Notes under the pieces: generated by a model | Told to the model about the DNA's origin: nothing | The model's database searches: none | The model's input: only the letters and a program-made list of their open reading frames with translations | Translations under genes and position numbers: made by a program | Assembly (NCBI GenBank): GCA_021904315.1 | Contig: CM038919.1 | Span: 5,704,001-5,768,000, forward strand | DNA from: Sphagnum magellanicum | Lineage: Eukaryota > Streptophyta > Sphagnopsida > Sphagnales > Sphagnaceae | DNA: 64,000 nt | Direction: 5' to 3' | Shown here: positions 3,080 through 28,745 of the stretch, in pieces | Layout of the letters: every line of letters starts with the position of its first letter | Numbering within the stretch: position 1 is the first letter of the stretch

Positions 3080-5800
3080 TGATGGCAAATTCATGAAAGT
3101 CAATTCCCAAATGTTGGCTTGCTTGCCCAACAAATCATGTGAATTTCAAGGTCACAACTTGAAACTAAACAAGTGTTCAATCTTGTTAGTGTGTTGATAG
3201 CTTGAAGACATTGCAAGTTACACGTGGAAAATTTTAATATCATTGCCATGGTGAAGAATTGACCTAATGATCCTTGTATGAATTGTTCATGACATAAGGA
3301 TTTGACATTTTGAGAGTTGAAATTTTATTGGTTAACAAAAATTATGATTTAATTGAGGAATCAAATTATTTGAACAATCAAAGCTAGATAGTGATAAGGT
3401 TTGGCAAGGTGAAATCACAAATGTTTTTATTGTTTTTTTGTTATTTTTTAAGATTGCTAGAATTTCAAATTTGAATGAAATTTTGCATTTGAAAGAACTA
3501 ATCTTTGTGTTCATGTAGGTTATAAATGTGAAATTCATCAAAAGCAAGGATGATGACTTTTGGTTGTATGGTGTGAGACTAGGTGCTTTTGTGTTTAGGT
3601 GGGGTGTATGTGGGGTGTGGTTGGGGTAAGAAGCTTGTGCTACATTGGGTACAGTTTTTTAACGAAGTAGGATTCAATTCCCCCACAAATTGTTGGTTTT
3701 GCAGAAATTTCATGCTTCTATAAGGCAAGTGGTGATTGCAAAAATTAAGTTCAAACATCCAAATTTTATCTTTGTTCTTTATACATATCATATAATTAAT
3801 CTGAGTTTAAAAACTAGCAAATCCATATCCACCAGATGAAAAAAATTGCAGATGAATATATATTCATCATTGCAAATACATTGCCAATTTGTTTTATGCA
3901 TATCCTTTTGTTATGCATTTTTTAAAAATATGACATATTGATAACCAGGGCAAAGCCTCAAAACTTCATATCTGGACAACATCAATTATACATACTTGCC
4001 TCATACCTACCAAAATCCAGTTTTGAACCCTATATCAAGACGTGGACAATATGAAAGTTTTTTAAGTACCCAACAAGAAGACCAAGCTAGTATGAAAAGT
4101 TTAAAAAGTACCAAAAATACAAGGACTAGGCCAATATGTTCACAAATCAATACCAGACCGAAACTGCTTTTGATATTGAACCATTTCATGCATTGGTTGG
4201 TCATGCATGTATTTGTAATTTGTGCATGTGCACAAGTGCGTTGCTGTATTTTGTTATATGTGAATTATACTTGCCATTTTTCATATTTGTTTAAATTCGT
4301 TCAATGCATGTAGGGAATTGGCCATTGCTGTTGTGGCTTTATCAAGTTAATACATCACTTGGCTTTGAATGCTTTGTGCACATATTAAGGTCTGGGGTTG
4401 CAGATTATGTCATTTTCTTGAACAATCAGGTGGGTGTTGCATCTGGAACTCCCTGGTCCTCGGGGTGTTACCCTACACATATCAAGTTAATTAGAAACAA
4501 GTTGAACTAACTGCATTGTAATTCTTTTAAGCCCACATGTATTTCCTATGCTTTTTTTACAGCAAACATTTTCCTCTATCCTGGGCACACAATGGGAGAA
4601 ATTTCAAGTTGAATGCAACTTTTGGAATTTAGCATAGTTGTATCCATAACATTAATCTTATGGAATTGTAAATTTTTAGTTTATTACATTATTTTGTTCA
4701 ATGCATTCATCTAGGAGGACCATATTTGGCTTTGAACATAATAATAGGTTTATGTTACACAATCCTAAAATTGGATTCATTGGAATACTATATATCTAAA
4801 CATGAAATTTTGGCAAGAAAACATAAAGCTCTATTAATTTCACATGGTCCCCAAGTTTCACAATATTATGTTGTAAGAGATAACATTATTTATTTTCAAC
4901 ATAAACCAAAATACTAATCAAGGCAACTAGACTGAAAATGAACTACAAAACACAAAAGGAATCCCAAGCTCAAAACATATCTAAGGGCAACAAGGTGACA
5001 AGTGGACCCGTGTGGCACCCATCAAATTGTTGATTAACAAGTGACATACAATGCCTATCTAAAGGTCTAGCATTCTCAAAACATTGTCAAATTCTCCAAT
5101 GCAATAAAACCATAGTGTAGGTATGTCCTAATAATGCCTTAAGTATCTCCCATTCAAAATTCCATACTTGTTGTATTGGCACCTTGCCCCGCAAACCTCT
5201 CACATTCAAACACATATCCAGATGTGATCTATTTTGCATGCCATCCATGACTTGTTTTGGCACCATGCCCTGCAAAACCTTCATGTTCAACCACACAAAC
5301 CCCCACCCAGCTCCCCCATGTATTAATTCTCTACTAAACCTTGAGGAGGGTTAATCCCGAACTTTTTTTTCTAGGTACCCTCTCAATTCATGCTAAAGAA
5401 AACAAAAGGATTATTTGAAAGGTACCAAATTGTTTGTAAAAGTTGTAGCGTTGACTTGGGAGAACAATGCTTCTTCTGCATGGAAACATTGCCTTGCTCC
5501 CAATTGGATATCTGCCACCGCAGCCCCCATGTTTCCGCTGGCTTTGTGGTATGTATTCTTCATGGGTTTGTGGAGAAGAAGAATAAGAAGCCACCTCATT
5601 GCTATGGGGAGTAAAATTGTATGATTTTCCTTTCCGAGAGGCAAAATACCATCCTTCTCGGCTGCAAGTTACTCATTAGAGTGAGTCTAGAAAACTGACA
5701 ATACACCATGTTACAATGGCAGGGGCAGCTGATTGAGCCACCAGTAGCTGTATTGAGAGGTAAACAGAACTAGCCCATTGCAGCTGATTCTGGCACCTAC
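3080..5800. other. No confident gene
   Basis: Short ORFs on both strands lack recognisable domains or consistent splice signals. One plus-strand ORF near 5415-5551 ends at a GTATGT donor, which alone is not enough to call an exon. Confidence 0.4.
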
Positions 5801-10326: not shown

Positions 10327-10824
10327 TCATAACTGTAGGAAGTCTAGAATGTGTCGAATGGTACGAACTAGGTAGTCCGCTTTGCTATTAGGAGGTAGTC
10401 GACGAATCGGACCACGCAACCAACGATAGTGTCCAACGCCGGGAACTGAAGACCAAGCGAAGATAGAAGTGTCTTCGGTTTCATAACAACCTTCGCAGAC
10501 AGTTTCGAGTTCGTCACCAGAAGCGGGGTCAACTTGTAATAAGATCACTAGGGTGCGGGAGTTTGGCGAAATACGATAGTACCAAGCTCGAGGGGGTTCA
10601 ACTTCGAGACGAGCGCGCACTTCGCGAGGTTCGGGTTCTTCATCGCGAGGATGCTGCATTAGGGTTAGATCTAAAGATGACTCCGAAGGCGGTTCTGCAT
10701 CCGCTGGTGCGGCTTGGGGCCCGTAGGATGTGACCGTGCGCAACGCCATACTTTCAAGGAAGAGAGGAAAAATCTTCAACAAAATCGAATTGACAATGGA
10801 GATGGGGTGGACTTGTGACATCAA
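10327..10824 (-). CDS. Unrecognised 165-aa ORF, GC-rich
   Basis: I do not recognise this protein. The ORF has a probable internal start at about 10750 (MALRTVTSYG), giving roughly 140 residues. The first third is acidic and proline-rich. The second is compact and rich in aromatic and charged residues, with segments such as RAWYYRISPNSRTLVILLQV and GVGHYRWLRGP, and two nearby cysteines (CEGC). The DNA is visibly richer in G and C (including CG dinucleotides) than its neighbours, which are AT-rich and gene-poor. A 25-bp tandem repeat and a 190-bp tandem duplication follow within 1 kb on the plus-strand right. It could be an accessory ORF of an unidentified mobile element, a recently arrived gene, or a real host gene. 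No frameshift or stop interrupts it. Confidence 0.4.
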   Translation of the reverse strand: MMSQVHPISIVNSILLKIFPLFLESMALRTVTSYGPQAAPADAEPPSESSLDLTLMQHPRDEEPEPREVRARLEVEPPRAWYYRISPNSRTLVILLQVDPASGDELETVCEGCYETEDTSIFAWSSVPGVGHYRWLRGPIRRLPPNSKADYLVRTIRHILDFLQL

Positions 10825-11003
10825 GTTTTGCGGTCATGATTTATAGGCCGAGGAAAGGAAGAGGAGGTGTAAATGATGGCCTAGGACCATGGTAAAATAA
10901 AAATTTAAGGTCAAAGGATAAAAAATAAAATAAAATGAAGGTTCAAATAAGTTGTTCAAGGGGAAGTGGGAATAGGTAGCAAGGAACCTTTTTCTTCTCC
11001 TCC

Positions 11004-14062: not shown

Positions 14063-14497
14063 TCACGTTCTACGTCTTTTCTTTGTCAATCTAATGTGGA
14101 ATTCTTCTATGGCTTTTTGGGCATGTTCCATGTTGGATTCATTCACCCAAGATGCCTCTATCGGATGGTATCCTTTCCACTTAACTAGGTATTTTCGTTC
14201 TCGTCCTCTTAGTTGCCTTGATTTGAGCATGGCCTCCACCTCAAACTCTAGTTCATTATGAACCAAGTCTGGTGGGGGCCTTGAGTGATGCTCTTGATTA
14301 GGCCTTGAGGCATCGCAGGAGACCAGCTTCAAAAGGGAAACATGAAATGTGGGATGAACTCTAAGATTTTCCGGTAATTCTAACTTATAAGTGTCGGAAA
14401 GTTTCTTTTCCAACATTTTGAATGGGCCCGCATATGGGCTCAAGAACTTATGACTTAAACCTTCTGGCAACCGAAAGTTCTTGATGTTCAACCACAC
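14063..14497 (-). pseudogene. pol: Chromovirus integrase tail with chromodomain
   Basis: The segment starts WLNIKNFRLPEG and contains a GPF-type motif (YAGPFKMLEK). It ends in a chromodomain: EFEVEAMLKSRQL, then RKYLVKWKGYHPIEASW and a helix with AQKAIEEF. The aromatic residues expected to line a methyl-lysine pocket (Y, W, W) are largely present. In chromoviruses this domain is thought to steer integration towards marked chromatin. It is in frame with the integrase ORF across one TAA stop, so it was once the C-terminus of the same polyprotein. Confidence 0.9.
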
Positions 14498-14509
14498 CTT
14501 GTCTCTTTC

Positions 14510-16105
14510 TTAAAACTTCACCTCTCGTCGGGACTTGTCCACAAAATCCTTGTACCTTTTGTGCGCATTTTCCAAGTTGGCCTTTGCCAACTCCCACAAG
14601 CACTTCCTTTCTTCATCAAGTTGTGTGACCATTGGCACTTCCTCACTTGCATCACTCGAGGGTTGTCCTTGTGCTGCCCAAGTCATGGGCACAATTGGTG
14701 ACTTGCCCGTCACCATTTGGAATGGGGTGGACCCAATTGCGGAGTGTGCCGAATTATTATAACAAAACTCAGCTAACTCCAAAAGGTCCACCCAATCTTG
14801 TTGATCCGCCGCCACATAATTCCTTAGGAATTGGAATTGTTGGATCACCAAGTTCACCTTCTCGATTTGTCCATCGGTTTGGGGACGGAATGAAATGTTC
14901 ATTTTGAGTTCTGACCCCATTCGATTCCACAAGGCCTGCCAAAACTTACTTGTGAACTTTGGGTCTCGATTCGAGACTATGTCCTTTGGGAGGCCATGAT
15001 GCTTGAAGATGTGAGAGAAGAACAACCTCCCCGTCTCTTGAGCCGTGACTTCATCTTTTGTGGGAATGAAGTGTGCCATCTTGCTAAATCGATCCACCAC
15101 AACCATGATGGCATCAAACCCCTTTGATGGGGGCAAGCTCACCATGAAGTCCATGGACACACTTTCCCACGGCCCTTCGAGAATTGGCAAAGGTTGCAAC
15201 AAACCCGTTTGCTTCTTGTTAAGGGTCCGGTTTTGTTGACAAGTTAAACAAGTCTTCACATACTCCTTCGCATTATCCTTTAAGTTGGGCCAATAGTAGG
15301 ACTTCTTTAGGAATGTTGTGGTGCGCTTTGCACCACCATGGCCCGCAAGCGGTCCATCATGACATTCCTTCAAAAGTGTGTCCCTAATTTTCCCTTCCGG
15401 CACATAGAGTCGATTTTGTTTATACCACAATAATCCATTTCGCAAATGGAAGTGGGACTTGGCTCCATTTTGGATGCTTTGCCTTACCTCCTTGGCAAAA
15501 GCATCTCGGCGGCTTGCTGGTCTAACTTCCTTTTGAAGTTCCGTCTCTCCCACATACACCACTCTAAGTTGGTGTTTTCGGCTCAAGGCATCGGGGACTA
15601 TGTTCTCCTTTCCCGACTTGTGCCAAATGTCCACATTGAACAAGGCCAATGTGTCTTGCCACCTTACTTGTTTTAATGACAACTTGGGTTGAGTGGCGAA
15701 GTACTTCAAGGTCACATTGTTGGTCCACACTACCACATCTTTGGAGCCTATGTAATGGCCCCAAGTCTTGAGGCAATGTATGATCGCCCACATTTCCTTC
15801 TTGTGGGTTGGCCACCTTCGCTCCGTCTCACTCAACTTCTTGCTTTCAAAGGCCACCGGTCTTCCATCTTGCACTATGACACCTTCGATTGCAAAGTCAG
15901 AGGCATCGGAATGGATCTCAAAGTCTTTGTCAAAGTCGGGCAACTTCAACACCGACGCCTTCACCAAAATGCCTTTCAAGGTCGCAAAGGCTTCATCACA
16001 TGCTTCTTCCCAATCATAAGTGACGGCGGACTTCTTCAAGAGGTTTGTCAAAAGGGCCGCTATCTTCGCAAAGTTCTTGATGAACTTGCGATAATAGGAG
16101 GCCAA
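14510..16105 (-). pseudogene. pol: Chromovirus RNase H and integrase
   Basis: RNase H begins with EIHSDASDFAIEGVI, and its later TDN box reads TNN, another G-to-A-type change. The segment DALSRKH closes RNase H. Integrase shows the HHCC zinc-binding region (CHDGPLAGHGGAKR, then CLTCQQN) and the DDE core: first Asp in SMDFMVSLP, second Asp in SNRDPKF, Glu in RPQTDGQIEKVN. A GPY/F-type region and chromodomain follow after a TAA at about 14507. The expected residue there is probably Gln, which fits CAA-to-TAA. Confidence 0.9.
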
Positions 16106-17345
16106 TCCTAAAAAGGATCAAGGCAGGAACCAACTTAGGCGGCTCCCAATCCAAAATTGCCTTGACCTTGTGATCATCCATCATCAAACCTTCTTGAGTT
16201 ATCTTATGTCCAAGAAAATCCACTTCCGTCACCCCAAATTCGCACTTCTCAAGCTTGGCATACAACTTGTTTTCCCTTAGCCTTTGGAACACCTTGTGGA
16301 GGTGCTCCGCATGCTCCTCCAAGGAGCTACTATAGATCAAAATGTTGTCTATGTAGACAACCACAAAATCATCAAGCCATTTGCGAAAAATGTCATTCAT
16401 GAGAGTGCAAAATGTGGTGGGTGCATTGGTGAGCCCAAAGGGCATCACCAAGAACTCATATGAGCCATACCTTGTGCGATAAGCGGTCTTTTCTTTGTCC
16501 CCTTCTGTAATCCAGATTTGGTAATACCCCGAACGTAGATCGATTTTACTAAAAACCTTGGCTCCCGAGAGATGATCAAATAGATCATCTATGCGAGGTA
16601 AAGGATACCGGTTTTTCACCATTGCCTTGTTGAGTGCTCTATAATCCACACACATTCTCAACGTCCCATCCTTCTTGTGAACAAAAAGGACGGGTGCCCC
16701 ATATGGTGATTTACTTGGTTTGATATACCCTTTTGTGAAGAGTTCTTCGAGTTGAACCTTAAGCTCTTTCAACTCCTCATGGCTCATTCTATATGGGGCC
16801 TTGGCGGGAGGTGCCACTCCCGGCATCACTTCAATTGCATGATCAACTCGTCTTCTCGGGGGCAAGTTTTCAGGCAACTCATCGGGCATCACATCCGATA
16901 ACTTTTCCAAAATTTGCTTTATGCACTTGGGAGAAGTCACCAACTTGGTGGCTTCCTTGGGTTCATATTCGTCCAACACCCGCATGACACACATCATGCC
17001 AAAGCCTCCCATGCATTCTCTTTCCCAAGCTTTTCTTAACATAAAGTGGATGGTTGGACCACCCACACAAGGCAACTCGTGTGCCTTCACTCGCACAATC
17101 TCACTTTTAGATGGGATTCTAACCAACCTATTGTGCCCTTCTATGAGCACATTGTTTTGGGTGATGAACTCCATTCCCAAAATGCAATCCATTCCACCCA
17201 AGGTGGAAACCAACAAGTCTACATTTCCTTTCCAATTTCCTAGTTGAAGAGGCATCTCCTTTGCTTGAAACGTAGTGGGATGGGGAACCCTATCCGCAAA
17301 GTGCACCTCAATGGGTGCCTTGAGCTCTTCCAAGTGGAGCTCCAT
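16014..17345 (-). pseudogene. pol: Chromovirus protease C-terminus and reverse transcriptase
   Basis: After the remaining protease sequence, RT blocks follow in the expected order: [45 protein letters not shown] and [13 protein letters not shown]. The catalytic box reads YIDN where family members have Y.DD. Loss of the second aspartate (GAT or GAC to AAT or AAC, a G-to-A change) should abolish polymerase activity. The frame runs off near 16110-16125, where one or two bases have been gained or lost; the next frame resumes with [19 protein letters not shown] sequence (split across the shift). Same frame as the gag segment upstream. Confidence 0.9.
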
Positions 17346-17360
17346 CCTTTTGGCGCATTC

Positions 17361-18150
17361 TCAGGTTATGAAGTTGTGAGAGGCCCCTGTGTCCAAAAGA
17401 CATAACACATCCCGCTTAACAATCTTTCCTTTCAAGAAAATAAGTCGATTGCATTCCGGTTGGGCTAGATTGGCATTGAAAGCAAGTACCTTAGAGCTCC
17501 CACTCCCTGCTTTGGACTTGGGACAATCTTTGGAGTAATGCCCCACTTCGTTGCAATTGAAGCATGCTCCTTTGGGTTTCACCCCAAAATCTCCCTTGGG
17601 TTGGCTCCCTTTGAAAGAAGCCCCTTTCTTCACAAAGTTCCCTTTTAGTTTGAACCCCGAGCCTTGGAATTGTTTGGGCTTATCCTTGGTTGGGCTTCCT
17701 TGCCCCCGGTTCCATTCCCCCTCATGCCTTGGCTTCTTGTGAAGGAACTTGTTGTCCTTCTTGAACCCGGATTTGTCACTCCGCCCCACATCCGAGAAGT
17801 TCTCCACTTTCATGATGGCCTTGGATAATGAAGCGGGCCAACTCTCCTCAAGCTTTCGCTTGGCCCAAGTTGGAAGCCCCATCACAAATTGGCACACACG
17901 ATCCAACTCATGCATGTGCCGGATCTCAAGCATGAGTTTGGAATAAGCTCTCACATATTGCCTCAAGTTCTCATTTGTGGCATTCACAAGGTCATGGAGC
18001 TTGCACCTCGAGATGTAGTCGGAATTCCTTGGAACAAACTCCAACTCAAGGCGTTCCTTAAAGAACTCCCAAATGTAGCCATGGTTCTTCCCCTCCTTTT
18101 GTCTCATCGTCCTCCACCATGTGGCGGCATAGCCTTTCAAGTAGGATTGG
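17361..18150 (-). pseudogene. gag: Chromovirus gag (partial) and protease start
   Basis: The gag part begins mid-protein with the family signature LKGYAATWW (A..WW near the start of the retrotransposon gag domain). A charged, low-complexity linker and a CCHC zinc knuckle (CFNCNEVGHYSKDC, which binds element RNA in gag proteins) follow. The protease active-site block LLDTGASHNFIT ends the segment at an in-frame TGA. Reading on without a frame change enters the protease-RT part, so the break is a single nonsense codon. Gag should form the virus-like particle and the protease should cut the polyprotein. Upstream gag sequence and initiator codon are lost at the junction with the neighbouring element. 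Confidence 0.85.
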
Positions 18151-18154
18151 GCAA

Positions 18155-19060
18155 GTACAGTTAGGGATGGTGGTTTGAAGGTATTTCTATGTCGACATTG
18201 ATCCTATTGCAAGGCAAGTGGCGACATCGAGAATGAGGGAATTCACAACAAGATTTGCACAACAATTTGCAACCACCGCATGGAAGGCTAGTTTCACATT
18301 TTTGCCCTCTAACATAAAACTAATTTAAAAGAAGCATATGGAATTACTTAGCCTTGTCGACCTCATCATTTCAAGTTGGGAGTGTCAAGGATTTTCAGTG
18401 GTTGGATTTGGAGAAGGCTTGAGTGACACAAGATCTGGTCTTTTCACGGACATGATACGATTAATCACCTGGGCTCAATCCATTTCTCCTACACTTGGTT
18501 ATGTAATTGAAAACACCCCTTCTCAGCTTGATCATAAGGAAAAAGTCCAAGAGCACTACACATTGGTCAAGCATTCCCTTGGAAAGTCGCTCCTACTTGA
18601 TGCAGCACAATGCAATTCCTATGCGCACCGGTTACGCAACTAGTGGACCAACCTAACACCACTCTCAGTTCTGCAACTAGTTCTGAAATACACTATTAAA
18701 GACCCCAACTTGCAAGTTTCTCACATATTGGATGATCAAAGTTCTTGCCAACCAATTACAAGGCAAGAGAAACCTCCTTGGTATCCTGCGAACACAATAA
18801 GAAAACCAAGAAGTGCTTGGCCCACCTTTGTCTCCTTCCTAGGAACACATGCCTTTCAAGGAGATGGACCAGGCCTGGTGTATCGTCATGCTTCAGCCAC
18901 TTGTGATAAACCAACCCCAAAAGAAAGAGAAAGGGCTATGGGGTTCCAAGCTGGCAGTACTAGTCACACTAAGGTGACTAAATTAGAGCATAACGCTCTA
19001 CTGGGGAGAAGCATGGACCTGAACTCCCTTACATGGTTGTTGGTAACTTGTGTACTCTTT
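18155..19060 (+). pseudogene. Retrotransposon-encoded C5 cytosine DNA methyltransferase
   Basis: C5-methyltransferase motifs appear in the family order. Motif II-like: FYVDIDPIARQVA (18185-18223). Motif IV loop: SSWECQGFSVVG, with the catalytic Cys at 18383-18385 and Glu where most families have Pro before it. A conserved GLSDTRSGLF block follows, then the motif VI Glu in VIENTP (about 18509). Motif VIII-like: DAAQCNSYAHRLRN, then a TAG, then WTNL. Motif IX-like: KPTPKERERAMGF. Motif X-like: LLGRSMDLNSLTWLL. Motif I (cofactor-binding FxGxG) would lie before 18155 and is lost. Stops at 18176, 18326 and 18641 kill the copy. An ORF from 18710 runs without a stop from the MTase C-terminus into reverse transcriptase, showing a true fusion. 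The closest subfamily cannot be set by eye. Confidence 0.82.
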
Positions 19061-20190
19061 CAAATGTACACAACACCACCCCTGATTCAATCAGCTTGCA
19101 GTTCTGGCAATGCAACCATGTGGCACCCCAACCAAGTACATTTGCCTATCTTCAACACTCTACATTTCACCCTTAATGTTGGGGGGGAGGAAGTACCATG
19201 TAATTTGACTCAAGTTGTGTCTAATACACCTAGAGGTACATCAGCTTCTGGAGAAATAATCACAACCTTCTATGAATCTACACAGTTGGATAGTGGAGAA
19301 CCCAATACACCAAGTTCTTCAAACACACTTTCCAACTCCATTCCATGTGTTTCCAACTACCCTTTCGTTATGGGGAACCAGCTCACCAAGAAAGAGAGAG
19401 ACCAGGTCATAGACTTGCTAATTAAATATGAGAATGTGTTTGCATTCTCAATGAAAGACTTAGGTAGGTGTAAAACCATGCAGTTCTCTATAGACCTTAC
19501 AAATGAGACACTCGTCTATCGAAGGAAACATAGGTTGAGCAAGCATGAATGGGAATTAGTAGATGAAAGATGCAAAGAACTCCATGAGGCTGGTCTCATT
19601 CAGCCATCAAGTTCTGATTTCGCAACCACTACAATAATGCCAACAAAGAAAGATTTAACTGGATTATGGATTGAGAAAAGGATGTGCGGGGATTATAGGC
19701 CTTTGAACCTAATTACACCTCAGGATAGGTACCCCATGCCCATCCCTGAAGAATTATTTGATAGCATTGGAGATTTAAACATCTTCACAATTATGGATCT
19801 GAGGCAAGGTTTCAACCAGATTGTGTTCGTTACAAAGGATCACAAGAAAATGGCATTCCATGGAAACAACAAGTTATGGGAATGGCTTGTGATGCCTTTT
19901 GGATTGAAGAATGCACATGTCTTCTTTCAGCGAATCATGGACTAGGTTCTCGAAAGGGTAGATTTCTTGAAGTGCTACACAGATGATGTCATAGTGCATA
20001 ACAAGGGACTCCTACAACATTTGGCTCATCTTGAGGAGTTATTCAAAAGGCTCCACGAAGTCAATATGAAGATCCATCCTAAAAAGTGTGAGTTTGCTGT
20101 CACTTCAGTAATCTACTTTGGACATAGAATTGTGCCCAATGGTATTATGGCTCATTGGGCCAAAGTAATAGCCATTTTGGAGATCCCAAT
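19061..20190 (+). pseudogene. pol: Reverse transcriptase of the MTase-bearing element
   Basis: A Ser/Thr-rich linker of about 100 residues joins MTase to RT. No DTGA protease motif is visible, so the protease is absent or lay upstream. RT blocks: ERDQVIDLLIKYENVFAFS (pre-RT region), CKELHEAGLIQPSSSDFATT, RMCGDYRPLNLITPQDRYPM, FTIMDLRQGFNQI, VMPFGLKNAHVFFQRIMD. A TAG at 19943 follows, then CYTDDVIVHNKG, which keeps both catalytic aspartates of the Y.DD box. Then HPKKCEFAVTSVIYFGHRI. The TAG probably replaces Gln (CAG). The frame is lost at about 20188, where the reading continues in frame 1 with HTLRSFIGLCNYYK. Confidence 0.9.
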
Positions 20191-20800
20191 CCTACTGATA
20201 TTCACACGTTGAGGAGCTTCATCGGATTATGTAATTACTACAAAATTTATGTTCAAAACTTCAGTACTATTGTTCATCCTCTGTATGCATTGCTAAAGAA
20301 GGATGTTGCTTAGACATGGAATGATGAGGCTTAGGAAGCTTTCAACACACTCAAGGAAAAGCTTTCAGAGTTCCCCATTCTGAGAAAACCTGATTTCAAC
20401 AAGGTCTTCATTCTACACATTGATTAGAGTGCTCTTGGTATTAGAGCTATTCTTGGCCAACTTGATGAGGAAGGCAAGGAATATGTTATCGCCTATGCAT
20501 CCTAAAGTAACAAGGTTGAGAGCAACTACTTTTCATACGAGGGGGAGTGCCTTGTTATTGTATGGGTTGTCATACATTTCAGGCCCTATCTTTATGGCAC
20601 CAATTTCACTTTGTATATCGACCACCAACCTATCAAATGGTTGATGACCAACGATAAGCTTATTGGTAAGTTAGTTCGTTGGGTGCTTATACTTCAAGAG
20701 TATGAGTTCAAGGCTATTCATTGACCTGGTATTACACATCAGAATGTGAATACCATGTCATAGAGACCCCTCATTACCTCTAAAGATTTTTCAGAAGCCA
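20191..20800 (+). pseudogene. pol: RNase H of the MTase-bearing element
   Basis: Frame 1 reads the RT thumb and connection region (TLRSFIGLCNYYK, then LYALLKKDVA), then RNase H: FNKVFILHID, TAG, SALGIRAILGQ. The catalytic DxS-type block is interrupted by a nonsense codon. Later blocks are SYEGECLVIVWVVIHFRPYL and LYIDHQPIKWLM. Stops at 20311, 20332, 20425, 20503, 20722 and 20761 sit at codons where Gln, Trp or Arg is expected, which fits CAG, CAA, TGG or CGA mutated by transition. Clearly non-functional in this copy. Confidence 0.85.
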
Positions 20801-20979
20801 GGCAAGATTTTGACCAGATTCCAACAATACATGTATCTTATGCATCTAGTTATCTTGCACTACTACAATGTAACCTGGTTGAGCATCCTATTGTGGATAT
20901 ATGGGAGGACTTGGACATTCTGAAGTTTCTTCAACATGGGGAATACCCTCCCCAAGTTACATCAAATCAGTGAGATTGC

Positions 20980-21975
20980 ATGCAACAATGGTCCAAACGC
21001 TACTCATGGAAGGACATTCACCTTATCCAATGCTTACCACAAGGTGACATAATGGTTCCACCATCACATGAATGGCCTAGTCTTATTCAAAAGGTACACT
21101 CAAAGCTTGGACACTTTGGAGTTAAGCGTACTTATAGCCTTCTCGCTCCTCGTTACCATTGGAGAGGTATGTATGCTCAATTCCGAAACATCATTATTAA
21201 GTGTGAACAATGTGATAAAGTGAGAACTTCTTTCTCCTCTCGACAGCTCACGCTTTCTCCATTCCCTATTCAAGGCATGTTCTATCATTGGTCATGTGAT
21301 TTAGTTGGAGAGTTGCCACAAACCTCCAAGAATAATGTTTACATCATGATTATGATTGAACATTTTTCAAAGTGGGTTGAGCTTGTTGCACTACCAGACA
21401 AGTCATCACACAGCACCAGCCAAGCTTTCTTACAACAGGTTCTAAGTAGGTTTGGGGCTTGTGTTGAGTACTTTACTGATCAAGGATCAGAATTCAAGGG
21501 AGAATTCCAAGACCTACTTGACCATGCTCTCATTGACCATCATCAGACTTTAAGAAATCATTCCCAAGCTGATGGCCTTGTAGAAAGGATGGTTCAAACG
21601 TGCAAAAAGGGACTTCGGAAGATTTGCATCACTAAGAACAAAGAAGATTAGGACTTGGCCCTCCCTTACATTGCCATGGGTTATAGGATGTCCAAACACA
21701 CCTCTTTACCTCATTTCTCTCCTTATTTTTTACTTTTTGGGAGACATCCCATTCCACCCTCTTCCATTGTTGTTCAAATGGACCAGGTTGTGGACTTGGA
21801 CTCCCTAGCCATTTGGGCTAGGGTCATTGCAAAAAAGGTTGTTCTATTCAGGAGGGTTATGCCCATGGAGAACCTGTCCATTGCACAACATCGAAACACC
21901 TTATGGTATGGCCATGGAGAACCTGTCCATTGCACAACATCGAGACACCTTATGGTATGCACACACATGAGGTGA
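20980..21975 (+). pseudogene. pol: Integrase of the MTase-bearing element
   Basis: Zinc-binding HHCC: VHSKLGHFGVKRTY, then IIIKCEQCDKVR. Catalytic core: first Asp in WSCDLVGELP, second Asp in YFTDQGSEFKGEF, Glu in HSQADGLVERMVQ, so the DDE triad is complete. A stop at 21649 (probably Trp to TAG) lies beyond the core. After SPYFLLFGRHP, the segment MENLSIAQHRNTLWYG is repeated in another frame because 49 bp were duplicated in tandem at 21863-21960. This shifts the downstream tail to frame 2. Integrase inserts the cDNA into host chromatin; its C-terminal extension here carries a PHD finger. Confidence 0.9.
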
Positions 21976-22387
21976 CAGTTACAAACCTAAGGTGAGACAA
22001 TTTGATGTTGGTGATTTTGTGTATCTCCAGCGGCAACCCAATGATACTCTAGACACTTCTTCTGATTACACTATCTTGAGGATTAAGGCGATTAGGCCTT
22101 CAGGTGTATTGGAGTTGCAAGGAGTTAACAAATGCACAATTCAAGATCATTCCAAAAATTGTGCGCCCTACCACTTGCCGAACTTAGATCCTACCATCAT
22201 CACATTGACTCGGATTCCTCCACTTGATTATCCATGTCAGGTATGTCAGAGGACAGACGATGCTAATCAGATGCTACTTTGCGATAATTGTAATGGTGGA
22301 TACCATCTCTTCTGCCTCAAGCCGAAGCTCATTCAAATTCTCACCAAAAATTGGCACTGTTCATCATGTTCTCCTACAGCACCTTGA
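21960..22387 (+). pseudogene. pol: Integrase tail with C-terminal PHD finger
   Basis: The tail begins VRQFDVGDFVYLQR, the usual post-core module of gypsy integrases, and includes RIKAIRPSGVLELQ. It ends with a complete C4HC3 PHD finger: CQVC, then MLLCDNC, GGYHLFC and NWHCSSC, followed by a natural stop at 22385. PHD fingers read the histone H3 tail. Position and order match where chromoviruses carry a chromodomain, so this looks like a substitution of one reader domain for another. The finger itself has no disruptive change; only the upstream frame is damaged. Alternative: a readthrough into captured host sequence, but the short linker and nearby polypurine tract argue for a normal element end. 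Confidence 0.88.
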
Positions 22388-22426
22388 TTCCTACTCAGAC
22401 CATGCCACGCTTTTCCCGGCTCAAGT

Positions 22427-22438
22427 CTTGGGGGGGAT
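22427..22438 (+). other. Polypurine tract / start of 3' LTR
   Basis: CTTGGGGGGGAT lies 40 bp after the polyprotein stop, the usual place for plus-strand priming in gypsy elements. The 3' LTR should begin immediately after, near 22438-22443. Its far end is not resolvable because the 5' LTR is missing. Confidence 0.55.
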
Positions 22439-22476
22439 ACATGAGAATTTCATCTCAGCCTCCTCTTGTGAATTGT

Positions 22477-22496
22477 ATATATATATATATATATAT
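22477..22496. repeat. TA microsatellite
   Basis: Short (TA)n run inside the presumed 3' LTR. Confidence 0.8.
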
Positions 22497-22559
22497 GTGC
22501 GTGCATATCTTTTTGGTTGATTAGTTTATACCTTTGACTGGCTTTAGTATTTTTGTTTA

Positions 22560-23280
22560 GTAAAGTTTACTACAGATTTACACCCTTACGACACCGCACA
22601 TCACGACACTACACATCACGACAAAGCTACATAAGGCTATATAGGGGTTATGCACATTATGTAGGCCTAGGTAAAGTATATGTAGTAGCTACCTAACTAG
22701 GCTTACATAGGGACCTTTATAGGGGCCTTTATAGGGGCTAAGTAGGGCATGGCTATTTAGGCTATGCAAGGTTATGTAGGCCTATGTAAGAGCTTTATAT
22801 GTAGCTAAGGGTACATAAGGGGTACCTAGGCATACATTGGGGCCAATATTATTGGGGTTATATATTGTAAAGGCTATGTGGGTCTATATATGTAAGGGCT
22901 ATGTAGGGGTTATATTGTAGGCTTATGGAAAGGTTATGTAGGCTTAAATATGAGCTATGTAAGCCTATGTAAAGGCTATGTAGGCATAGATAAGCCCTAA
23001 TTATATATAGCCTTACATACATTGGCCCTACGTAACATACACCATAACCTTTACATTACCTAACTATCAAATCTATGCAAACCAAGGCCTATTAGGCTAG
23101 CATAGGCTCATTTAAGATATAACCTAGGTTCATGTAGTCTCACATAGATGTACCTATGCTAATCTAGGCCTATCATTTATTTAGCTACCCTTTTACCTAC
23201 CTTCCCTACTTTAATCTCCTACCTACCTACCCTACTTTAATTTCCTACCTCCTAATTACCTATCTATATGTGACTTACCT
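22560..23280. repeat. Degenerate TAGGC/CTATGTAGG satellite-like sequence
   Basis: Dozens of diverged words such as GGCTATGTAGGCCTATGTA occur first in one orientation and then, after about 23090, increasingly as the complement (CTACCTACC). No ORF. It could be LTR-internal or a separate simple satellite. A similar TAGG-rich block lies at 31280-31500. Confidence 0.6.
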
Positions 23281-23329
23281 ACAACTTGTAAACACTTATA
23301 TGTAATATTTCATTTTCCAAAATTTATGG

Positions 23330-26577: not shown

Positions 26578-28745
26578 TCATTTTTCATGTTTAATCATCA
26601 CTTTTAAACAACAATAACTCATATCCATTATCAATATCTTTTCTGAGGTACATGCATTGTGGTATCTTGATGTAGGTTGTTGATGCTTTATGTAATATTG
26701 TTTCCCAACCAACCACATAAACAAGACTTCTTTGCATTTAATTGCTTCTTTTTCCTTCAAAGATTGTCGACCAACTGATATGTTTGAGCTTGTTTTTCTT
26801 GTGTTGTGAATGCTTTGTGTTCATAAACATCTCTTATCCAAGTTAGCCTTAAAAAAAGCAAACCACATACACTTTCACATTCATCCACATTTGTGCAAGC
26901 TATGAATATGCATTTCATTGCTGATAATGCATTACTATTACCCAATGCACCCTATTGCATGAGCATTTGAACGTCACCATGAGATGTTTTAATATTGGAA
27001 ATTTGTGTTCACATCTAATTGAAAGAACTCATGAAACTGTCATATTCTATAAAAAATTGTTCGACCAATGAAATCATTTCCTCTTATACTTTCCAAACTT
27101 TCAACAAACAAATTATTTTTGAATGGAGTTCTTCCGCTTGTTTATGACTACCACTGTTTTGCTTAATAAAACAAGTTACATACACTAAAATATTGTCCGA
27201 CTGAATACAATTCTTTTCAAGAAGTGCAAACTACGTTTAGTGCCAATAAACCCCAACACTTGAACTTCTAATATTATTTTATGCCATCTACACAATTTCA
27301 ATTCAAAATGGAGTATTTGCATCTACGCATTTCAAATTATAAATTGTTCTAGGCATTATTTTCATCCTTCTTTTGACTATCACTTTTTTTGTCTTTCTTT
27401 ATGTCAAACATATCGAGCAAAGCCAACTTCTTTGGGTGTGTTGCTCACATCATTGGAACTTATTGTTGTCCTTGGTGTTACTAATTCCAGGCCTTCCTCT
27501 TCCTCATCTATCATGTTTTCTTTTAGGCTTTGTGTCTCTAGCATGGTGTTTTCGTCTTCTTCATTTGACTCTAGTAGTCCGCCATTTGCACATGTTCTAG
27601 AGTCCTCTTCCTCTACCTCATTAATAGTTGTATTGGCCTCCACCAATTGGTCCATTTCCTTGTTGTATGCAAAAACTGATGCTTCATATGGATCATCCTT
27701 CGCATTTAAATCGTTTTTTTGCCATTTTTTTATGAGATTGAATCGCTTATTTTTTTGGGTGCATTGAATTTAAGCTGGTAATCGCATTATCAATGAAATC
27801 TTGTTCTAAAATTTATATTTGTCAGGTGTGTTAGCCATGGATTGTCTTTTAGTGGTTGTGGCAAGTTATTTAAAAACTTTGGGATAAACATTTTGATCAC
27901 TATCCCATATGTCTTGTAATCTTGCAAGTGGTTAGTAGATGCCCAATATCTAACCTTTGCCTGAAACTTTCCATCTACACTCTTTAGTTGTCTTTTTTCT
28001 ATAGATGGGTACAAATCCAAATTTGATGGCGTTCAATAAGAGTAATGTGGATACGGTTACCATGACATGATGCAAATGAAGTAGCTCTATTCCATTTTTC
28101 TTTGATGGAACCTTTCAATTCTAAAATATAACTGGACTAATTGCACAAAATAATCCAAGTTTAGGATCATGTCTAGTTGGTGACATACTTGTAGTGGTCC
28201 ACTCTAAGTATGCACTTAACTCTAGCATAACATCTTTGCTTTTGATTGGACCATTTGGTTGGTAGTCATGAGTTTAGAATGGTAACATCTACTAGAACAA
28301 CTCCAAATGGCAAAACAAATGTATGTGTTTTAACTGCCACAAAAGCAATTATTACTCGTCAATTGATGCTCTAATGTGACTGTTTGTTTCAACAATCATT
28401 ATGGATTTGTTTAATGTTCAATGTTAACTCCCATTTTCTTTTTTTTTCTAAAGTTAATATTTTCTTCTGCCATCACATAATTTGAATAAAATTTTATTCT
28501 CACATCTATTGAACCACAATGTAATGGGAACAATCAAATTTTGGTTCTTCGATCATTTGTCGACACATTTTTCTTTTCCAATGTTGCACAAAACTCATGG
28601 TTTCGAAACTGACCTTATCATCTGATGATTAATTGATTTTTTAACACTTTGTTCCTGAATTCAGGTGGCACCTAAGTTTGCCATCCTAGAGTTGCATATA
28701 ATCATCTTTGGGGTTTCATGAACTTTGTTGAGAACAAATTGCCAA
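26578..28745 (-). pseudogene. Decayed minus-strand gene, downstream part
   Basis: I do not recognise the product. Several open segments lie on the minus strand. One of about 120 residues (27767-27404) includes DPYEASVFAYNKEMDQLVEA and then an acidic Glu/Asp-rich region. Another (28020-27790) includes KFLNNLPQPLKDNPWLTHLT. A short segment (28745 to about 28665) continues the reading frame of the segment at 31913-32303 once the 28746-31909 element is removed. Stops interrupt the intervals at 27000-27300. It could be a host gene or an older transposon protein. Confidence 0.3.

Follow-up and report, generated by a model that had tools for sequence, protein, structure and literature searches.

Cytosine methyltransferases (MTases) carried by retrotransposons were described in 2018 (de Mendoza, 2018; PMC5890265), and our account of that work, like every comparison with it below, follows the parts of its text that were available. 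The closest system in it is KnitGypsy-Dnmt3, a gypsy element of the alga Klebsormidium nitens that carries a DNMT3 in Pol and has DIRS-like repeats, and which was taken as a separate acquisition in the algal lineage. The original prediction made for the locus studied here mentioned MTase genes in retrotransposons of some algae and dinoflagellates and saw novelty in the combination with a PHD finger; with this description, an MTase-bearing retrotransposon as such is not new. In Symbiodinium, SymbioDIRS-Dnmt3 also has a DNMT3 in Pol together with reverse transcriptase (RT), in an A-coding-B-A-B layout, and SymbioDIRS DNMT3s carried out de novo CG methylation in yeast, while the KnitGypsy enzyme produced none in the yeast assay of the same paper, a result the authors considered inconclusive (PMC5890265). 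SymbioLINE-Dnmt likewise places a cytosine MTase in a retrotransposon, but this is a LINE whose MTase lies in an upstream ORF and belongs to an orphan DNMT class (PMC5890265). Methylation of cDNA by the Pol-borne enzyme was proposed for the DIRS elements, and slower retrotransposition, to the mutual benefit of element and host, was raised in the discussion (PMC5890265). A 2025 paper (PMC12344493), as far as its available text goes, assigns some DNMT3s to retrotransposons, 'LTR Copia and DIRS', of streptophytes and dinoflagellates; its source for this is the 2018 work, where Gypsy is the type named. For Sphagnum or other bryophytes, no report of such elements was found among the matches listed in the open-licence literature.

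The window, the whole 64,000-nucleotide stretch of Sphagnum magellanicum DNA that was analysed and to which all coordinates refer, contains at 18155-22623 a dead, 5′-truncated gypsy copy in which a C5-cytosine methyltransferase is followed by RT, RNase H, integrase and a PHD finger, all on the plus strand. An extent of 18155..19945 had been proposed for it and is too short, since the PHD finger and a 3′ repeat that ends at 22623 lie beyond it in the same element. The predicted DNMT3-like C5 methyltransferase domain of Pol (18155..19051) is 86% identical over 299 amino acids to an open-frame genomic copy and contains three stops; its open frame at 18329-18643 matches the Pfam profile PF00145 (E=1.4e-7), at 31.7 bits above the cut-off of 22, and motifs II, IV (ECQ), VI (EN, here ENT), VIII, IX and X are present as originally predicted. 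Motif I is missing from the window through truncation: at about 18155 the copy ends against a chromodomain gypsy on the minus strand (14063..18154; gag-protease-RT-RNaseH-integrase-chromo, from open frames and Pfam), a neighbour that contains stops and a frame change and is itself truncated at this sharp common junction. The frame 18644-19945 is open and crosses, as had been claimed, from motifs VIII-X through a linker (19052..19370) into the RT (19371..20188; stop at 19943), where RVT_1 is matched at 5.1e-7 (30.0 bits versus a cut-off of 29.6), a Ty3-type RT in PDB is matched at 2.5e-17, and a YTDD box can be seen by eye at about 19976. RNase H (20185..20770), with six stops, was located by tblastn to the corresponding part of the open-frame copy, in which RT_RNaseH is matched at 2.4e-38; it is followed by an integrase (20974..21915) with an H2C2 zinc finger (Integrase_H2C2, 2.4e-14) and an rve core (2.9e-12), and by the PHD finger that had been placed at the other end of the element, which forms the C terminus of Pol (22235..22369; PF00628, 3.7e-12). 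A polypurine tract, GGGGGGG (22430..22436), shares its position with those of other copies and lies immediately 5′ of the B repeat (22437..22623), the 3′ half of a split repeat (81% over 187 aligned positions with B1 as query). Together, window 18155-22384 covers pol residues 192-1588 of the one-open-frame genomic copy at 83-86% identity, and neither the gag-protease part of the family nor its A repeat was matched in the window. Besides two changes of frame, the copy carries 13 in-frame stops (18176, 18326, 18641, 19943, 20311, 20332, 20425, 20503, 20722, 20761, 20971, 21649 and 21968). Immediately after its 3′ repeat, degenerate 'TATGTAGG/TAGGC' short repeats can be seen by eye at 22640-23310. 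Elsewhere in the window there is a tandem array of about 14 units of 24 bp (926-1261), and the frames 10327-10833 and 27404-27769 gave no Pfam match.

One explanation for the window taken by itself is a chance junction, in which a fragment of a host methyltransferase came to lie beside an unrelated gypsy element, and the window copy does adjoin another element at a rearranged junction. Linkage was judged in the genome (438,994,042 bases, 31 contigs). A PF00145 profile search gave at least 124 matches, host genes included (123 scored of 387 candidates), and at least 150 matches, 76-100% identical to the query, came from the window MTase frame (of 627 candidates, 150 were scored). When these 150 were sampled systematically (ranks 7 to 140, every 7th, n=20), RT was found on the same strand, +1.05 to +1.65 kb from the MTase, in 17 copies; in the other three, which fit a chance junction, it was not found at the expected place. 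With the MTase-RT frame as query, 94 of the best 97 copies scored (100 rows, of 3253 candidates) match 415 or more of its 433 residues without a change of frame, when stops are read through, and three are split; the frame is free of stops in 13 of the 94, the window included. A query that spans the junction favours copies with both parts among its best hits, which makes the sample of 20 the fairer of the two tests. Given these counts and the same order of domains in a second family (below), we reject a chance junction, to which we attach practically no weight, and the predicted fusion of a C5-MTase to RT in the Pol of a gypsy element is upheld. Neither of the two outcomes named in advance as refuting it occurred: the C5-MTase match is significant, and further copies have MTase and RT in the same order and frame.

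The window copy belongs to what we call family 1. One genomic copy has a single open frame of 2379 codons that encodes protease-MTase-RT-RNaseH-integrase-PHD; its aspartic protease falls just below the Pfam cut-off and has a DTGAQP box, and its gag part is without a Pfam match and has, by eye, two CCHC boxes. The MTase domain is free of stops over its full length in 6 of 18 family-1 copies read. Family 1 is thus a high-copy, recently active Ty3/gypsy family with the polyprotein gag(CCHC)-protease-DNMT3-like MTase-RT-RNaseH-integrase-PHD, and we hold the identity and architecture of the element, as read here, to be practically certain. In L020 and L022, gag is separated from the A repeat by a low-complexity tandem region in which both strands have long open frames. 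A search of viral contigs with two frames as queries found no relatives.

Complete family-1 copies have the structure A(311)-coding-G7 or G8-B(178)-GC-A-B, with outer ends TGTC...GACA. Nine copies, chosen for long frames, were read whole, and both ends were readable in eight; seven of these eight are flanked by a perfect 4-bp target-site duplication (CTCT, TAGG, CAGC, TGAC, GTTC, GGAG and CAAT), and the remaining one (L033/L034) has readable ends and no perfect 4-bp duplication. The full A-coding-B-A-B arrangement, including A1, was present in four of the nine. In four copies A1 and A2 of one insert are 98.7-99.7% identical; with a divergence of 0.3-1.3%, those insertions are recent. Among the 3′ ends of 20 family-1 copies, a non-random set, nine have B-A-B, nine have B only and in two no B was found; in L021/L022 a 3′ repeat was looked for and not found. 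In one copy (L029), a second A-like repeat at 3708-4677, inverted and diverged (74%), lies beside the A repeat and is perhaps an older copy. An ordinary LTR element was considered and rejected, as no LTR-sized repeat pair exists within window 1-30000 and the family has split repeats in place of plain LTRs at both ends. There is no TGG primer site after the A repeat, A1 being followed by T(C/T)TAGAAAAA. The features of Ty3/gypsy elements are otherwise present, namely the order RT-RNaseH-integrase with an rve core, TG...CA ends and a short target-site duplication, and a search for a tyrosine recombinase (PF00589) in two segments of the open-frame copy gave no match. SymbioDIRS-Dnmt3 differs in this respect, with a DIRS-type RT and a tyrosine recombinase (PMC5890265), whereas the moss element has an rve integrase, a target-site duplication and a gypsy RT.

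A TATA box is recognizable by eye inside the A repeat. With the polypurine tract before B and the TATA box in A, the LTR produced by reverse transcription would be B-GC-A, and the integrase appears to cut in the middle of this LTR, at the palindrome GACA-GC-TGTC, and not at its outer ends. Cutting at the central palindrome would yield either A-coding-B or A-coding-B-A-B inserts, and inserts with B only may derive from intermediates with a single LTR. Alternatively, A-coding-B could be the product of B1 and B2 recombining after insertion, so that we offer the model of integration as a proposal.

A second family of the same architecture is present in the genome. Family 2 (L001, L003, L004, L035 and L036, where L001/L036 are one copy and L003/L035 another) has a gag with CCHC, MTase, RT, RNase H, integrase and PHD, its layout and GC spacer are those of family 1, and 4-bp duplications flank both copies read (TTTC around an A-coding-B-A-B insert and CTTG around an A-coding-B insert, so that one of the two has the complete arrangement). 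Its MTase is 42% identical to that of family 1, with motifs kept. A third, degraded MTase (L041; C17:7308500-7313500) is 62-63% identical to family 2 and has a remnant of a CCHC gag upstream.

To which class the transposon MTases belong was judged from motif order and profile scores. In the alignment their motifs run from I to X and are not rearranged, and the order typical of DRM enzymes (VI-X before I-V) is absent; the host has three DRM genes in that rearranged order, along with MET1- and CMT-like exons, all of these read by eye. A profile built from nine MTases and searched against PDB matched DNMT3A first (62 bits, 3.8e-16), then DNMT3B/3C (55 bits), the plant DRM 4onj (38 bits), which we take to be the tobacco enzyme, HhaI (30) and Arabidopsis DRM2 (29), with DNMT2-type enzymes (13-18 bits) and DNMT1 (15) weakest. 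NCBIfam yielded nothing more specific than the generic dcm superfamily, which all nine members matched; one member, scoring 38.7 bits, lay below the cut-off of 100.65. In a ten-sequence tree the transposon MTases group together, and they are 30-31% identical to DNMT3A and 20-25% identical to the host DRMs; DNMT3A itself pairs with the host DRMs (33-37% identity, support 63), and the transposon MTases lie outside that pair. The transposon enzymes are less similar to DNMT3A than the host DRMs are, so that they form a divergent branch and their assignment depends on profile score and on the order of motifs, by which they are DNMT3-like. Another possibility is that the MTase is of bacterial or viral origin or was taken from the plant DRM family: HhaI was matched at 30 bits, the host has DRM genes, and the position outside the DNMT3A-DRM pair would be in keeping with such a source. 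However, the lead of DNMT3A in the profile search, the order of motifs and the identities all favour a DNMT3-like enzyme, and we have set these other origins aside as very unlikely. A DNMT3-type catalytic domain is shared with the plant DNMT3 and DRM enzymes, but the DRM enzymes are rearranged (PMC6453930, from the available part of its text), as are the three distant ones of this host.

The catalytic Cys, Gln, Glu-Asn and Ala-His-Arg and motif X are invariant across the MTase alignment, which spans 42% identity. At the catalytic Cys the usual PCQ is replaced by ECQ in all six family-1 rows and in the window, the preceding residue being Glu in family 1 and Pro in families 2 and 3, and activity of the family-1 enzyme is therefore uncertain. 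Selection was estimated on eight family-1 copies chosen for long frames, two of them with one MTase stop, stop codons being skipped. The dN/dS of the MTase was 0.137 (codon bootstrap 0.08-0.23), lower than that of RT (0.31; 0.17-0.56), although the bootstrap ranges overlap; the values for RNase H, integrase, PHD and the linker were 0.36, 0.16, 0.11 and 0.62. A ninth copy, L033, was left out of this set; adding it gave 0.17 for integrase, 0.12 for PHD, 0.34 for RT, 0.34 for RNase H and 0.68 for the linker, and left the MTase value unchanged, its gapped MTase being excluded in any case. These ratios indicate that the family-1 MTase is under purifying selection and that the linker is relaxed. For family 2, three pairs gave 0.27, 0.58 and 0.83 on just 3-8 synonymous and 7-13 other changes, which says little. 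Perhaps the MTase is a passenger, or a structural or RNA-binding module that no longer methylates DNA, as the ECQ of family 1 and the inconclusive inactivity of the KnitGypsy enzyme in yeast (PMC5890265) might suggest. We regard this as rather unlikely, given the low dN/dS of the MTase, the PCQ of family 2 and the invariance of the catalytic residues and motif X between families.

We propose instead that the MTase acts within the replication cycle of the element: Pol would package the enzyme together with RT in the particle, where the MTase could methylate freshly made cDNA de novo, either ahead of integration or while it takes place. Methylation of its own cDNA is, tentatively, the most likely main role of the enzyme. 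In the decay of the window copy, compared with six long-framed copies, 187 of the 255 substitutions private to the window copy are C-to-T or G-to-A, and such changes affect 28 of 94 CG sites, 51 of 155 CHG sites and 108 of 1402 CHH sites. This pattern is as expected if the window copy was CG- and CHG-methylated before decaying, and it would fit a model in which the host or inserted copies, and not cDNA, are what the enzyme targets, so that self-silencing tempers the spread of the element and benefits both partners. Yet CG and CHG methylation is expected in any silenced plant transposon, and therefore the signature does not identify the enzyme; it is compatible with maintenance by the host MET1/CMT, with no requirement for the element's own enzyme. 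Even with the slower retrotransposition raised in the discussion of PMC5890265, we think that self-silencing is a doubtful account of the MTase, and a role on cDNA is still preferred.

The PHD finger of the open-frame copy is closest to the PHDs of KMT2D and an MLL3 homolog. Chromoviruses are Ty3/gypsy elements with a chromodomain, in which gag-PR-RT-RH-IN is followed by this chromatin reader after the integrase. The moss element shares that order and the presence of a chromatin reader following the integrase, but it has a PHD finger for the chromodomain, an MTase between PR and RT, and split repeats for LTRs. Placed where chromoviruses have their chromodomain, the PHD finger would read histone tails and steer integration, a role as a reader for integration that we judge to be about evenly balanced. 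PHD is not mentioned in the main text of PMC5890265.

As with KnitGypsy-Dnmt3, the moss element has a gypsy domain composition, a non-rearranged DNMT3-type MTase in Pol, DIRS-like repeats and purifying selection on the MTase (PMC5890265), and every structural feature of the description that lent itself to testing matches. The moss family is, as likened by description, the same kind of element. Its setting differs, being a moss genome with at least 150 scored MTase matches; the PHD finger with which Pol closes, the TG...CA ends, the 4-bp target-site duplications and the A-coding-B inserts are seen in the moss family and would set it apart if the algal element lacks them. What this case contributes is the moss host, the copy number, the second family, the structure of the ends and the PHD finger, whose combination with an MTase, absent from the main-text description of the alga, may be new. 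The best explanation as a whole, and one that we consider probable, is a family of the KnitGypsy-Dnmt3 kind with an MTase that would act on cDNA, targeting by PHD and integration in mid-LTR. Rather more speculatively, a single gypsy lineage may have captured DNMT3 before the split of Klebsormidium and land plants, and not independently in the alga, and retained it, alongside a PHD reader, as an enzyme essential to replication; rve-mediated integration from an intermediate opened mid-LTR at GACA-GC-TGTC would then give rise to DIRS-like split repeats with no need of a tyrosine recombinase.

The presence in one moss genome of two divergent families of identical architecture suggests an old and stable partnership. 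An integrase, TG...CA ends and a 4-bp target-site duplication in combination with split repeats make this odd repeat arrangement testable, and the young copies, 6 of 18 with an unbroken MTase, open transcription, methylation and the isolated enzyme to study. Transposons are the usual targets of DNA methylation; in this case, a successful family of them may itself be the writer.
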